This document shows, piece by piece, positions 3,609 to 31,667 of a DNA stretch of 64,000 nt. The translations under genes and the position numbers were made by a program. The DNA is taken from positions 1 through 64,000 of IMG/VR virus record IMGVR_UViG_3300025645_000037; one strand, 5' to 3'. The notes beneath the pieces are model-generated. The model did no database searches. It was not told the DNA's origin and was given only the letters and a program-made list of their open reading frames with translations. The number at the start of each line of letters is the position of its first letter. Position 1 is the stretch's first letter. Source of the DNA: a virus.

Positions 3609-4982
3609 ATGAATGATAAAGAATTTACGAATATGGTAAAACGATTTGCAAAATACGCAGTAGCATCTGTAGTAGTTCTATTCGTGGCACTTTCGACTTG
3701 GTTTACTACCAGTGAAGGGTATTTGTACTATGTGCAAAACAAACTCACGGGCTCTACTACTGTTTACTCGGAACCGGGTGTGCACTTGAAGATGCCATTG
3801 TTTACTAATATCTATGAATACAAACGTGTTGCAACAATTGATATGACCATGGAAGACGGTAACTTTACTCGAAACCTTGGTGCAATTAATGTCGGCTTTG
3901 CGGATACTTACACAGGCACAGTTCCTGCAACGTTCCGTTATCGTTTGCCTGTAGATGAAGAGAACTTCCGAAAGCTGCACCAAGATTTCCGAAGCTTTGA
4001 CAACTTGGTAGATACTTTGCTTGTTAACAACTCTCGCAACGTTGCAGTTGTTACAGCAACTCAGTACACAGGTGAAGAATTCATCCAAGGTGGAGTTAAC
4101 GCTTACAAAGCACAAATGGAAGATCAACTTTCAAATGGTCTATATGTAACAAAGCGACAGCAAGTTGAAGTTACAGAAAGCGGATATGCTGATGTATCAA
4201 GCACAAACTCAAACGCTAATCTTGTTGAAAACGAAATTCGACTTGTGATGAAAAATGTGATCGTCATTGACGAGACTTCGGGACAACCTCGGCGACTTGA
4301 GAATCCTATGGCAGAATACGGTATCCAAGTTACGCAGGTAACAATTGGTAAACCTACAGCAGATTCTCAACTTGAAACATTGCTTGACCGAAAGCGTCAA
4401 TCGGTTGGTGAAAAGATTACTGCTCAACAGGAAATCGACACAAACCGTGTAAAGGCAGAAGCAGCAAAGCAAGAGCGCGAAATTGATAAGCAAAAAGCTA
4501 TTCAAGATGCTCAGAAGGAAAAAGAACTTGCAACTATCCAAGGTCAGCAACGTGTTGAAGTAGAGCGCCAGCAAGCCTTGCAAGAACTTGTAAAGCAACA
4601 AAAAGAGAAAGATGTTGCTGTGATCCAAAAGGAAAAGGAACTTGCTATTGCCGAAGCTAACCGCGGTATCCAAGAAGCTGCTGCACAAGCTGCAAAGTTT
4701 GAAGGTATGGCAATCCGCGAAAAGGGTCTAGCCGAAGCAGATGTTGAACTTGCTAAATTGAGTGCAAAGCAATCAGCTAAGGATATCTATATGGCAGAAA
4801 TCGAACGTGACATTGCTCGGGTTATGTACCCTGCGCTGAAAGATGTTACTATTGACATGCCAGACTTCTACAGCGGCGGTAGCGGCGCAGAAGCACCAAC
4901 ATCACTTGATGTGTTTACTACGCTCGGCGCACTGAAGAACCTGGAAGACCGCGCAGCAAAAGAAGCACCGCGATTTAAATAA
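3609..4982 (+). CDS. SPFH/prohibitin-like membrane protein
   Basis: 457 aa. One N-terminal transmembrane helix (about residues 15-32), then a prohibitin/stomatin-type domain (about 35-250), then a long Glu/Lys/Gln-rich coiled coil (about 260-400) in which AAKQEREIDKQKA and similar heptads are clear. Prohibitin homologs are known in marine T4-like phages; family members form large ring assemblies on membranes and influence proteases or membrane domains. The phage version's target is unknown. It is followed by a strong terminator at 5001-5027 and is preceded by the exported small protein under the same promoter. Confidence 0.8.
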   Translation: MNDKEFTNMVKRFAKYAVASVVVLFVALSTWFTTSEGYLYYVQNKLTGSTTVYSEPGVHLKMPLFTNIYEYKRVATIDMTMEDGNFTRNLGAINVGFADTYTGTVPATFRYRLPVDEENFRKLHQDFRSFDNLVDTLLVNNSRNVAVVTATQYTGEEFIQGGVNAYKAQMEDQLSNGLYVTKRQQVEVTESGYADVSSTNSNANLVENEIRLVMKNVIVIDETSGQPRRLENPMAEYGIQVTQVTIGKPTADSQLETLLDRKRQSVGEKITAQQEIDTNRVKAEAAKQEREIDKQKAIQDAQKEKELATIQGQQRVEVERQQALQELVKQQKEKDVAVIQKEKELAIAEANRGIQEAAAQAAKFEGMAIREKGLAEADVELAKLSAKQSAKDIYMAEIERDIARVMYPALKDVTIDMPDFYSGGSGAEAPTSLDVFTTLGALKNLEDRAAKEAPRFK

Positions 4983-5000
4983 TTCACAACACATGCAAAC

Positions 5001-5027
5001 AAAAAGAGCCTTTAGGGGCTCTTTTTT
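5001..5027 (+). terminator. Rho-independent terminator after the SPFH gene
   Basis: AAAAAGAGCC and GGCTCTTTTT form a 10-bp stem around a short loop, followed by a T run. Its position 18 bases after the SPFH stop ends that transcript; the next promoter begins at 5029. Confidence 0.85.
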
Positions 5028-5028
5028 C

Positions 5029-5058
5029 TTGACATCTATTGCGTATTTGTGCTACAGT
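5029..5058 (+). promoter_or_regulatory. Early sigma70-type promoter
   Basis: TTGACA (5029-5034), 18-bp spacer ending TGC, then TACAGT (5053-5058). It starts immediately after the terminator and serves the 40-aa gene at 5095. Confidence 0.55.
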
Positions 5059-5094
5059 AAATTATATAAAATAAAAGCAACATAGGATTATAGA

Positions 5095-5217
5095 ATGTTT
5101 CATGTATCAAGCGACGGCACTACTGTTGAATTTAATTCTCGTCTAGGACAACGCAGGCGATACACTACCACGCAGTGGGACAGGATTTGGCCGAAGCTGT
5201 TGGCCAAAATGTTTTAA
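5095..5217 (+). CDS. Small basic hypothetical protein, 40 aa
   Basis: 40 aa beginning MFHVSSDGTTVEFNSR, with a basic patch (QRRRY) and a Trp-rich end (QWDRIWPKLL). It has its own promoter (5029-5058) and terminates before the promoter at 5254, so it is a single-gene unit. RBS is weak (AGGA 10 bases upstream). No family recognised; independent promoter and compact frame are the support. Confidence 0.5.
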   Translation: MFHVSSDGTTVEFNSRLGQRRRYTTTQWDRIWPKLLAKMF

Positions 5218-5253
5218 CACACAAATAGGTTGTAGTAAAGTATGCGTAATCGG

Positions 5254-5282
5254 TTGACATCGATTAAAAAAAATAGTATACG
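5254..5282 (+). promoter_or_regulatory. Early sigma70-type promoter
   Basis: TTGACA (5254-5259), 17-bp spacer, TATACG (5277-5282). It precedes the three coupled genes 5308-6019. Just upstream (5241-5256) is a 15/17 match to the MORN array junction, possibly a remnant. Confidence 0.6.
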
Positions 5283-5307
5283 TTAAATTTACACAAAGGA
5301 GACTGTA

Positions 5308-5526
5308 ATGAAAACTGTAAAACTCGAAGTGCTTAAGAATGGTTCAATTTATGTAGACGACATGCGCATTACTGATCGTAGCACAAAACCTTGGGGAGGA
5401 TCCCCTACTGTGTTTACAGTTAATGTTCTTAAGCGAGACGTAATACAAACATTAGTAGACAATAACTTTAGCATCAAGAAGATTGATGATACTTGTTATG
5501 CAAAGCAGTTAAAGAAATATCTATGA
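5308..5526 (+). CDS. Hypothetical protein, 72 aa
   Basis: 72 aa starting MKTVKLEVLKNGSIYVDD, mixed charge, no membrane segment. Strong ribosome site (AAAGGAG, 7 bases before ATG). Its stop overlaps the next start as ATGA, so it is translationally coupled to the 76-aa gene. No family recognised. Confidence 0.6.
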   Translation: MKTVKLEVLKNGSIYVDDMRITDRSTKPWGGSPTVFTVNVLKRDVIQTLVDNNFSIKKIDDTCYAKQLKKYL

Positions 5527-5753
5527 CATATTGGGCAACGCTTTATTTTGCAGGCAAGGTTGTATTAACAATGGGCTTTGCAGGACAGACACTTGATCAA
5601 TGTCAGACAATTACTAAATTAATGATTGAAGATATTGAAAATCATTATCGAGTTGATCCAGACAACGCAGTGTTATTGATGTTCCCTACAAACAAATTCA
5701 CTGCAACTTGTGAAACCAAGTTGCTTGATGTTGACCCAGAATACAAAAAATGA
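5523..5753 (+). CDS. Hypothetical protein, 76 aa
   Basis: Start chosen at 5523 (MTYWATLYFAG) because the ATG overlaps the upstream stop as ATGA; an in-frame ATG at 5493 would need a 34-base overlap. 76 aa, with a short beta-rich start and a likely helix around residues 20-40. It couples onward to the 89-aa gene by another ATGA at 5750. Unknown function. Confidence 0.6.
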   Translation: MTYWATLYFAGKVVLTMGFAGQTLDQCQTITKLMIEDIENHYRVDPDNAVLLMFPTNKFTATCETKLLDVDPEYKK

Positions 5754-6084: not shown

Positions 6085-6738
6085 ATGCCAGCAATTAAAG
6101 TATACAAAGCAAATGGACTAGTTATTCCATTTGAGGAAGCAAAAGTCGGCAAGGCATATCGTTGCCCGTTTACTAATAAAATTTACAGTACAAAACGTGC
6201 ATACGTGACGCATCTGCAAAAGTACCGCGCGACTACTATTCGTAGAAATAATTCAAAGCAACGTTGGCAACGAAAATTAGAGAATCTAAGGAACCAAACT
6301 AGTATTGACAATATTATTCAATGGATCGAAATGAATCCAGAATTTTTTATCAATAACATAATCCTAGACAGTTTTGCAGACGACCGAAAATATCTAGAGA
6401 GTATTATTTGTGATTTTAACATCACTGTTACTAGACTTGTACTCAATTATAGCAATAATGTAAGCAACTCGCATTCTGCCCCGTTTGGCAAACGGACCAA
6501 CTGGGGCGGCAGAGTAAAAGATGCACCAAGGGGATATCCCGGATGGCAAGGTTCTATTAGTTTTACAATGAGTCATGAAGTGCCTAGCTTCACTACTAAT
6601 ATGTTCAATAACACTGGAATCAACATAGGAAGTGGCGGGGGCGGTGGCCTTAAATTTCAATACACGGTGGAACTCTTTGAAGATGACTGGCCTGGTCTTG
6701 CAAAATCACGAACACTAGACATTCTAAGTCAGAAATAA
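6085..6738 (+). CDS. Paralog A: hypothetical protein sharing the 71-bp block
   Basis: 217 aa from ATG 6085 (RBS GAGAGAAG). Residues about 27-50 (YRCPFTNKIYSTKRAYVTHL) look like a degenerate zinc-finger-type segment with only one Cys. Residues about 70-217 are paralogous to the whole product of 7058: both have WIE/VN...F near the start, SAPFGKRTNWGGRVKDAPRG in the middle, a Gly-rich GSGGGGG segment and end with a DDWP motif. Identity outside the central block is modest by eye, but the block is identical at the DNA level. Function unknown. Confidence 0.6.
   Translation: MPAIKVYKANGLVIPFEEAKVGKAYRCPFTNKIYSTKRAYVTHLQKYRATTIRRNNSKQRWQRKLENLRNQTSIDNIIQWIEMNPEFFINNIILDSFADDRKYLESIICDFNITVTRLVLNYSNNVSNSHSAPFGKRTNWGGRVKDAPRGYPGWQGSISFTMSHEVPSFTTNMFNNTGINIGSGGGGGLKFQYTVELFEDDWPGLAKSRTLDILSQK
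6477..6547 (+). repeat. 71-bp block, copy 1 (identical to 7264-7334)
   Basis: Every base matches 7264-7334. The block contains the hairpin-forming palindrome ccgtttggcaaacgg (6-bp arms) and the perfect 10-bp palindrome gggatatccc. It is read in the same frame in both genes (SAPFGKRTNWGGRVKDAPRG plus YPGW). Confidence 0.95.
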
Positions 6739-6739
6739 C

Positions 6740-6976
6740 TTACATCAAGCGGACGGTAACAAATTGGTTCTTAACATTACTGTGCCAGAACTGACCTTTA
6801 CTGCCCGCTTGCATCCACGCCTGGTAAACTTGTTCCCCGGCTCTTCTTACACGATACCGGCGACCGTTTCCTAACGCCATAGTAATGTCTCCGCTCGGTC
6901 CATTGACTAATGTTAAATCAGCAATCCATGAACTTGATACAGGGTCTTCGGCAATGGCAAATTCTTTAAACTTCAT
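6740..6976 (-). CDS. KTSC-like domain protein, late-type gene antisense in the early block
   Basis: 78 aa from ATG 6976. The C-terminal half (GRRYRVRRAGEQVYQAW, ASKGQFW-type segment and NVKNQF) follows the layout of the KTSC domain: sequence-specific strand, then Y-x-V-x(n)-V-Y, then A-x-S-K-G-x-F/W, then a final N-x-x-F/Y. KTSC proteins are small and may bind nucleic acids; function here is unproven. The start was chosen because TATAAATA lies 5 bases upstream (6982-6989); an in-frame ATG at 7003 lies upstream of that promoter. It is the only minus-strand gene among the early plus-strand genes. Confidence 0.6.
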   Translation of the reverse strand: MKFKEFAIAEDPVSSSWIADLTLVNGPSGDITMALGNGRRYRVRRAGEQVYQAWMQAGSKGQFWHSNVKNQFVTVRLM

Positions 6977-6981
6977 ATGCA

Positions 6982-6989
6982 TATTTATA
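6982..6989 (-). promoter_or_regulatory. T4-like late promoter (TATAAATA), 5 bases before the ATG
   Basis: Perfect TATAAATA on the minus strand, ending 5 bases before ATG 6976. In T4 this box is read by the gp55 late sigma factor. The spacing implies a leaderless mRNA. Confidence 0.6.
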
Positions 6990-6996
6990 ATTTCTA

Positions 6997-7025
6997 TTGA
7001 CATACGTTAACAGACATGCTACAAT
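6997..7025 (+). promoter_or_regulatory. Early sigma70-type promoter, extended -10
   Basis: TTGACA (6997-7002), 17-bp spacer ending TGC, TACAAT (7020-7025), 32 bases before ATG 7058. It lies back to back with the late promoter at 6982. Confidence 0.7.
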
Positions 7026-7057
7026 AAGATAATTGCAACAATATAGAAATTAGTACA

Positions 7058-7591
7058 ATGGACAAATTTGCAGAACTTTGGCAACAACCTAGCTTTGAAA
7101 AAATAGCCGAATGGGTTAATATTAATTCCAATGTGTTCCTGTTAAACGCATTAGGAAACAATAGTAATTATCGATATTTGTATAACAGAATAGTCAACGA
7201 CTTTCGTATTGAAGTCACTTACCTCGAAGGACGCTGGAGCGAAGTAGTTTCGAACAATCATAGTGCCCCGTTTGGCAAACGGACCAACTGGGGCGGCAGA
7301 GTAAAAGATGCACCAAGGGGATATCCCGGATGGCGTTCAAGAATTGAATTTTGTATAACTCACAATCTTCCGGTTTTTGCAAAGGACCTTTTTCAAGGAA
7401 GTCGCATCCGGCTTGGCACAGGAAGTGGCGGCGGCAACAACCGGTTTGGGTACAGCACTGAGTTTTTTGCCGATGACTGGCCTAAATTAGTCGAACGAAT
7501 AGAAATTCAAAAGACTCATTCTATTATGTCCGATATTCCTTTCAACCCGAAAATAACATTCGGACAACCTAGATATTTTGCAACTTTCTAG
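7058..7591 (+). CDS. Paralog B: hypothetical protein sharing the 71-bp block
   Basis: 177 aa. It aligns over its full length with the C-terminal two thirds of the product of 6085 (WVNINSNVFLL against WIEMNPEFFIN, the shared central block, GTGSGGG, and FADDWPKLV against FEDDWPGLA) but lacks the N-terminal degenerate finger. It has its own early promoter. No known family recognised. RBS is poor: no clear Shine-Dalgarno lies before ATG 7058. Confidence 0.6.
   Translation: MDKFAELWQQPSFEKIAEWVNINSNVFLLNALGNNSNYRYLYNRIVNDFRIEVTYLEGRWSEVVSNNHSAPFGKRTNWGGRVKDAPRGYPGWRSRIEFCITHNLPVFAKDLFQGSRIRLGTGSGGGNNRFGYSTEFFADDWPKLVERIEIQKTHSIMSDIPFNPKITFGQPRYFATF
7264..7334 (+). repeat. 71-bp block, copy 2 (identical to 6477-6547)
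   Basis: Second copy of the block, 716 bases after the end of copy 1. Sequences immediately outside it (6548 onward against 7335 onward) no longer match, so the edges of identity are sharp. Confidence 0.95.
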
Positions 7592-17041: not shown

Positions 17042-17323
17042 TTACGTATATTGCAATCGTATCATTGTTTTTTCTACTTCTGTACATGTGTCAACACGCT
17101 CAAGCCACTCGTTGAAGTCGTGCTCGACGTCTTTGAGGAACCAAAGGTTGACGCCATCTGCATATTCAACAGCTGGGCCATCTGTTCGATGTAGCTGATT
17201 GTTTTGATACCACACCTTGGTGCCATCTGGATGTTCGACTGCTGGTCCATCTTCGCGATGTAGTAGATTGTTTTGATACCAAGTCTTGGTTCCATCTTCG
17301 TCTACGATTAATCCATTACGCAT
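17042..17323 (-). CDS. MORN-variant-like repeat protein (minus-strand pair, 2 units)
   Basis: 93 aa, same length and unit count as the last gene of the 5-prime array. Starts MRNGLIVDEDGTK and ends MIRLQYT instead of MRLQYA: the usual ATGCGTAA after it is ATACGTAA, so the next start codon has been lost. Overlaps its upstream partner by 8 bases (17316-17323). Function unknown. Confidence 0.72.
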   Translation of the reverse strand: MRNGLIVDEDGTKTWYQNNLLHREDGPAVEHPDGTKVWYQNNQLHRTDGPAVEYADGVNLWFLKDVEHDFNEWLERVDTCTEVEKTMIRLQYT

Positions 17324-17663
17324 ACTGTAACCTCATCAATGTTTTTCGTGCTTCGGTGGCGTCGACCTGTTCAAACCATAGGTTTAATGAAAGTTGTTCC
17401 CCGTTGAAATACCACACCTTGGTGCCATCTGGATGTTCGACTGCTGGTCCGTCAATTCGATGTAGTCGGCCGTTTTGATACCACACCTTTTTGCCATCTG
17501 CATATTCAACAGCTGGTCCATCTGTTCGATGTAGCTGATTGTTTTGATACCACGCTTTGGTGCCATCTGTCCATTCAACTGCTGGTCCATCTTCGCGATG
17601 TAGTAGATTGTTTTGATACCAAGTCTTGGGTCCATCTTCGTCTACGATTAATCCATTACGCAT
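17316..17663 (-). CDS. MORN-variant-like repeat protein (minus-strand pair, 3 units)
   Basis: 115 aa, three HR-x-DGPAVE units; ends with the invariant MRLQYA. The N-terminal 20 residues are nearly identical to its partner (MRNGLIVDEDG, then TWYQNNLLHREDGPAVE), so this is a recent duplication. It has its own extended -10 promoter at 17685. RBS AAAGGAC. Confidence 0.75.
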   Translation of the reverse strand: MRNGLIVDEDGPKTWYQNNLLHREDGPAVEWTDGTKAWYQNNQLHRTDGPAVEYADGKKVWYQNGRLHRIDGPAVEHPDGTKVWYFNGEQLSLNLWFEQVDATEARKTLMRLQYA

Positions 17664-17684
17664 ACATTGTCCTTTCTTAAAAGA

Positions 17685-30572: not shown

Positions 30573-31667
30573 TTAGGATTCAGCTTCGATGTCGACATCA
30601 ATTTCTGTATCGATTTCTTCAGCTTCTTCAATCTCGGTATTTACCGAAAGTTCTTCTTTAAGAAGGTAGTCTGACATAACCATGTCAAGCATTTCGCCAT
30701 TCCAGTCTTTACGATAAGCAAGATGCTCTTCGCCTGACGAATCAACATATTTCAAACGGTTGCCTTGTTTAACAAGCTGTTCTTTCTTTTCGAACAACTC
30801 AACTAGACCACTATAAGGATTCATGCCTGTTTCCCAAGGAATCTCAACTTGTACACCTTCAAACGGTTTTGCATAACGTGTTTTAACAACCTTACATGCT
30901 GCTCTAATACCGTGTACTTGAGAAGTTTTTACGCCGTTTGCATCTACTTTTAGTTTAAGCTTTTTCATAGCAACAACAATACTTGATGCATAGATAAAGC
31001 CTGCGCCGCCTGAGATCTTGTCGTCTGGGTCAAACATATCTTGTGATGCATAAGTGTGATTGGTTGCAACCATGCCTACGTTAAATGAACCAAACATATT
31101 CACACAGTTTGTTACAAGTGCTTTGAGTGCTTTTGCTTTACGACCCATGTCGCCTTTCATGTCACCTGCGTCAAACTGATTAACCTCGGTCGGTGTCATT
31201 AACATGCCTAGCGAGTCAACTACAAACAAAACTTTCGGTCGATCTTCTTCTGGACTGTCTCTGTAGTCTTTCATAAATGTTGACATAGTTTTAGCTACGT
31301 CGTCGATCATTGCCATGTTTAGCTTTAGGATCTTTTCTTCGCTAGTGTCTACGCCCAGTGCAGTTAGCCAAGATTCGTCAAGTGCATTTTCTGTATCAAT
31401 TAAGATAACGTAAATGCCTTGATCTTGCGCTGCTTTTACAATATTTCCTGATGCAATATATGATTTACCTGCACCTGATTCTCCAGCAAATACGCTTACT
31501 TTTCCTAGCGGAACACCTTTATTAAAGTCTCCGCTAACAAGATAATTTAAGGCATAGTTGCCTGTTGAGATCCAGTCTGTTGGATCGTTAAAGCCGCTGC
31601 TCATGCCCGTGATGGATTTAGTTAACCCTTTGCGAAATGCAGATGGGTCAAATGATTTATTCGCCAT
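30573..31667 (-). CDS. uvsX: UvsX RecA-like recombinase
   Basis: 364 aa; T4 UvsX is 391. Walker A GESGAGKS (near residue 66), strand with D (VLFVVDSLGML near 149, Walker B), VATNHTYAS (near 200) and L2-region residues. C-terminal tail acidic (EIEEAEEIDTEIDVD). Forms filaments on single-stranded DNA for strand exchange and recombination-driven replication. RBS TAGGAGAC. Head of the operon that leads through uvsY into the FkbM genes. Confidence 0.93.
   Translation of the reverse strand: MANKSFDPSAFRKGLTKSITGMSSGFNDPTDWISTGNYALNYLVSGDFNKGVPLGKVSVFAGESGAGKSYIASGNIVKAAQDQGIYVILIDTENALDESWLTALGVDTSEEKILKLNMAMIDDVAKTMSTFMKDYRDSPEEDRPKVLFVVDSLGMLMTPTEVNQFDAGDMKGDMGRKAKALKALVTNCVNMFGSFNVGMVATNHTYASQDMFDPDDKISGGAGFIYASSIVVAMKKLKLKVDANGVKTSQVHGIRAACKVVKTRYAKPFEGVQVEIPWETGMNPYSGLVELFEKKEQLVKQGNRLKYVDSSGEEHLAYRKDWNGEMLDMVMSDYLLKEELSVNTEIEEAEEIDTEIDVDIEAES

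Follow-up and report, generated by a model that had tools for sequence, protein, structure and literature searches.

Two diverged neighbouring genes of a T4-like phage, here called A and B, contain one and the same 71-bp stretch of coding sequence, and this block very probably reflects recent short-tract gene conversion between the two co-resident homologs. The DNA analysed (the window, 64,000 nucleotides) is part of a 187,282-bp virus record; its source is a metagenome contig, and the identity of the two copies is that seen in the assembled record. We assign the phage to the T4-like group because it encodes a RecA/UvsX homolog (30573–31667) together with genes that, by our own reading of the sequence, we take to specify a UvsW-like helicase, a large terminase, a tail sheath and a portal-like protein. 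RecT was not detected in the record, and a megablast search of 25 kb against phage records returned no near relatives. Elsewhere in the window, positions 1–2760 hold a tandem array of similar genes made up of repeats 69 bp (23 aa) in length, with the pattern WYQ-G-LHR-DGPAVE; every gene ends in ...MRLQYA with overlapping stop and start (ATGCGTAATGG); one array gene matches Pfam DUF6745, and related copies lie inverted at 17100–17665. The features in and around the block are the following:

6085–6738, plus strand: gene A, an ORF of 217 aa; uncharacterised phage protein with an N-terminal C2H2-like finger and a core
6477–6547, plus strand: 71-bp block, copy 1, in gene A, encoding APFGKRTNWGGRVKDAPRGYPGW
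6481–6495 (copy 1) and 7268–7282 (copy 2), unstranded: interrupted palindrome CCGTTTGGCAAACGG, from sequence search
6531–6540 (copy 1) and 7318–7327 (copy 2), unstranded: palindrome GGGATATCCC, from sequence search
6740–7003, minus strand: KTSC domain gene (87 aa) between A and B; Pfam PF13619, 28.8 bits against a cut-off of 25
6997–7025, plus strand: sigma-70-like promoter match 5' of gene B, TTGACA-17-TACAAT; consensus match only
7058–7591, plus strand: gene B, an ORF of 177 aa; without the N-terminal finger, with a C-terminal extension in common with its nearest homolog (L003) and absent from gene A
7264–7334, plus strand: 71-bp block, copy 2, in gene B, same sequence as copy 1

The start of gene A was placed at MPAIK since its relatives begin there. 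The two copies of the block agree at 71 of 71 bases, and the agreement has sharp edges, with the first mismatches at 6476/7263 and 6548/7335. Compared without gaps, the 120 bases flanking the block show 40% identity between the copies on one side and 40% on the other, and a codon alignment of A and B outside the block (130 codons) gives 48% DNA identity. An earlier, sequence-only reading of this DNA had described the identity as sharply bounded, as including third codon positions and as set in two otherwise diverged genes, all of which is borne out here. It had also proposed comparing silent divergence inside and outside the block: where the two proteins share a residue other than Met or Trp, the codons are identical in 21 of 21 cases within the block versus 22 of 43 outside it. 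Chance or protein constraint would produce such agreement with a probability of about 0.51^21 (<1e-6), and the contrast between the two counts thus argues that neither explains the identity of the block. A search for the 71-mer, likewise proposed, found two copies in the 187-kb genome, 787 bp apart, and the core 29-mer of the block was found in no IMG/VR contig. Further copies in unrelated genes, which the same reading had thought worth looking for, are absent from the genome, and both existing copies sit in homologs. We therefore treat the presence of an identical block in A and B as confirmed.

The block encodes the most conserved protein segment of a family with more than 50 phage homologs. 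A profile scan for this family found 56 IMG/VR loci, while no homologs were found in genome_contigs; a profile built from the relatives recovers both A and B in the genome, and PHROG 12523, a family annotated as unknown function, matches A (E = 4.7e-06) and, weakly, B (E = 0.013). The family signature, SN[ST]H--P---NW----PRGYPGW-G, lies within and adjoining the block. In the homologs the segment occupies the same position, in some cases longer by a few residues or shorter by one; none of them has an empty site, and the silent sites of the segment vary freely among them. In L003, for example, 14 degenerate block residues are in common with A or B and only 2 codons are identical, and other homologs have about 48–57% of block bases in common with A or B. 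The presence of the segment throughout, the lack of any empty site and the unrelated silent sites together indicate native protein sequence and not an insert. They also dispose of simple protein constraint, the account that the sequence-only reading had set against its own proposals, as the codons of A and B are identical throughout the block whereas those of their relatives are not. The FGKR and RVKD residues vary across the family, yet A and B agree in them.

The phage of A and B has two copies of the family. Whole-record searches of 18 other phages gave a single copy in 17 and, in the remaining one, an additional distant copy in tandem. In a phage other than that of A and B, the family forms a tandem pair at L025:3748-4425 and 4977-5657, where the upstream copy has lost most of the conserved loop. 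In an AlphaFold2 model of the gene A protein (pLDDT 92), the block is a loop between two long strands, behind the N-terminal finger and a helical part, and the conservation of H130, P133, W140 and GYPG suggests that this loop may be functional. Fold comparisons gave no convincing match, whether in the PDB (best E 0.13), with VIA-align (best Z 5.0, 9% identity) or in BFVD (one unnamed match, E = 6.5e-10), and a search for solved relatives found nothing beyond weak zinc-finger matches. Our analysis thereby points to a family of phage proteins that is uncharacterised, has a loop under strong conservation and matches no recognised fold. Copying of the block could keep this key region of the A and B proteins alike.

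The two genes are either old paralogs, or one of them was acquired from a related phage; under either origin the identical block is far more recent than the genes that hold it. In a tree built without the block columns, L003 is the sister of B (99/95), and A falls on another branch with weak support. Forcing A and B to be sisters costs 10.5 log units and is not rejected (AU p = 0.115), so the case for conversion is built on DNA identity and not on significant tree conflict. On the two sides of the block, B matches L003 at 53% and 50%, and A matches L003 (46% and 40%) about as well as L004 (39% and 51%), so there is no indication of reciprocal A/B chimeras. A Campbell-type chimera, with the 5' part of A, the block and the 3' part of B as the original gene, likewise found no support, given that B is equally L003-like on both sides and A is more distant on both.

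Under gene conversion, the conserved motif region, which encodes the same protein in both genes, would have paired out of register during phage replication, and 71 bp from one gene would have been written over the other; such a conversion, or a double exchange with the same outcome, is the simplest account. We infer the enzymes (UvsX-type strand exchange or single-strand annealing) as well as the timing of the event and its non-reciprocity. Minimal pairing segments are 23–27 bp for Red-beta and 31–34 bp for RecA (De Paepe et al. 2014, PMC3945230), and phage recombination functions act relaxedly on diverged DNA (PMC3945230). Recent local gene conversion, one of the explanations offered by the sequence-only reading, is supported by the exact and sharp-edged tract, by the silent divergence outside it and by homologs in which different DNA encodes the segment, and both the FGKR/RVKD residues and the RecA/UvsX homolog count in its favour. 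On the other hand, the modest identity of the block with other homologs counts against it where pairing calls for uninterrupted identity, and so do the rare codons of the block, of which conversion alone gives no account. A stronger version, in which the block is a preferred recombination target or is selected at the DNA level, and the functional loop is repeatedly homogenised in concerted evolution by directed short-tract conversion, seems to us very improbable.

Over 544 kb of loci from other phages, a comparable tract of at least 50 bp came up once: a pair of small, diverged paralogs (MMNERIKEIAAKAG...) has an exact 112-bp tract in common across the gene starts, with dissimilar flanks (L030:1964-2075 and 6818-6929). 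The genome of A and B itself has exact direct repeats with unrelated flanks of 43 bp (135529/136599), 27 bp (134928/135599) and 26 bp (162471/162805), given in coordinates of the full record (G000) and located outside the window (loci L074 and L076). With the 112-bp case and these short tracts in the same genome, the event appears uncommon but not singular. The three short repeats duplicate terminal parts of neighbouring genes, at either the start or the end. In those of 27 and 26 bp, what is copied is the start region of the gene at 134069–134941 and of that at 161633–162499, and the copy lies beyond a neighbouring gene; we take these two genes to be QueE-like and thymidylate synthase-like, respectively. 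The short repeats resemble scars left where a gene was locally inserted or replaced, or where two alternative cassettes were joined.

The composition of the block brings other histories into consideration. Its GC content is 59%, whereas A and B are at about 38% outside it, and it contains codons that are rare in this phage (GCC, CGG, ACC, AGG, CCC; p = 0.005 against its own protein, with about 2% of real 23-codon stretches equally odd). These codons could mean that the block was imported from another phage before it was copied, and a third, GC-richer phage homolog may have supplied the block to one gene, from which it was then copied, or to both; a similar GK[RH]TNW in L014, L013 and L016 fits such a source. 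However, the high GC is partly due to conserved G, P, W and R residues, the blocks of homologs being GC-rich too (0.52–0.61), the GC3 excess is only marginal (p = 0.053), the absence of the core 29-mer from IMG/VR contigs speaks against a donor, and copying within the phage or a double import would still be required. We consider import unlikely. Homogenisation or misjoining of two copies during assembly or consensus building deserves mention for an IMG/VR-type virus contig, the more so as the length of the exact repeat is near common assembler word sizes. Yet a linear path through two direct copies allows just one order in which all the sequence is used, and both genes are continuous homologs across the block, with B resembling L003 on either side of it, which makes such an artefact very unlikely.

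Besides gene conversion, the sequence-only reading had entertained a nucleic acid-level function and a mobile palindromic element, and had noted two palindromes, both of which we found in each copy. If the block served in DNA or RNA as a binding site, origin or regulatory hairpin, selection would keep its copies identical. The shared palindromes and the rare codons fit this, as does the 7-pair inverted repeat, expected in 0.5% of draws given the protein and phage codon usage in a test chosen post hoc, once the repeat had been seen; under the usual definition of a stem, with 6 pairs and a loop of 3 or more, the figure is 1.7%. With the 10-bp palindrome expected in 13% of the same draws, and thus unremarkable, the palindromes are mildly unusual at best. 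Against such a function, CCGTTTGGCAAACGG and GGGATATCCC occur nowhere else in the genome and are not conserved in the DNA of relatives, and the CCGTTT/AAACGG hairpin stem is missing from the minimum-energy predicted RNA fold, itself ordinary (z -1.24), which leaves an RNA hairpin function without support. Selection would, moreover, have to hold 71 consecutive bases at homologous codons of two genes, silent sites included, and copying is far simpler. In sum, we found no positive evidence for a nucleic acid-level function and judge it very unlikely. Insertion into A and B of a mobile palindromic element, in frame and of the type known from Rickettsia, would agree with the reading frame of the block and with palindromes lying 4 and 7 bases from its ends, but the 187 kb hold just two copies, which occupy matching positions in homologous genes, and relatives have the same protein segment. 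The family alignment refutes this reading in substance, and we give it next to no probability. A template/variable pair of a diversity-generating retroelement was also rejected: the record has no RVT_1 match, and the copies do not differ.

Gene conversion would be an ordinary mechanism here, and the block a tidy case of its short-tract form. It provides a clean natural example of how a T4-like phage can transfer some 70 bp of coding sequence from one gene to another although the two are only about half identical elsewhere, and it bears on low-fidelity phage recombination as a shaper of protein motifs. Literature searches on phage paralogs that undergo gene conversion turned up no paper that matches directly. 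Several known systems offer partial parallels. Rickettsia palindromic elements are similarly in-frame and palindromic, whereas the 71-bp block lacks insertion, dispersed copies and unrelated host genes. PeSL cassette shuffling in T4-type phages (Arbiol et al. 2010, cited in PMC4503421) likewise concerns T4-like genomes and recalls the short repeats by gene starts elsewhere in the genome of A and B; the block, however, is coding sequence and not a promoter/stem-loop cassette. In relaxed recombination by phage recombinases (De Paepe et al. 2014, PMC3945230), short segments are also swapped between diverged phage sequences, although that system involves temperate phages, defective prophages and Rad52-like recombinases, while here the exchange lies inside one T4-like genome with a UvsX homolog and no RecT detected. 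Finally, compared with typical partial gene conversion between paralogs, the flanks of our block are more diverged and the tract is short, but the hallmarks are the same: a short, exact and sharp-edged tract, silent sites included, in diverged neighbouring homologs.
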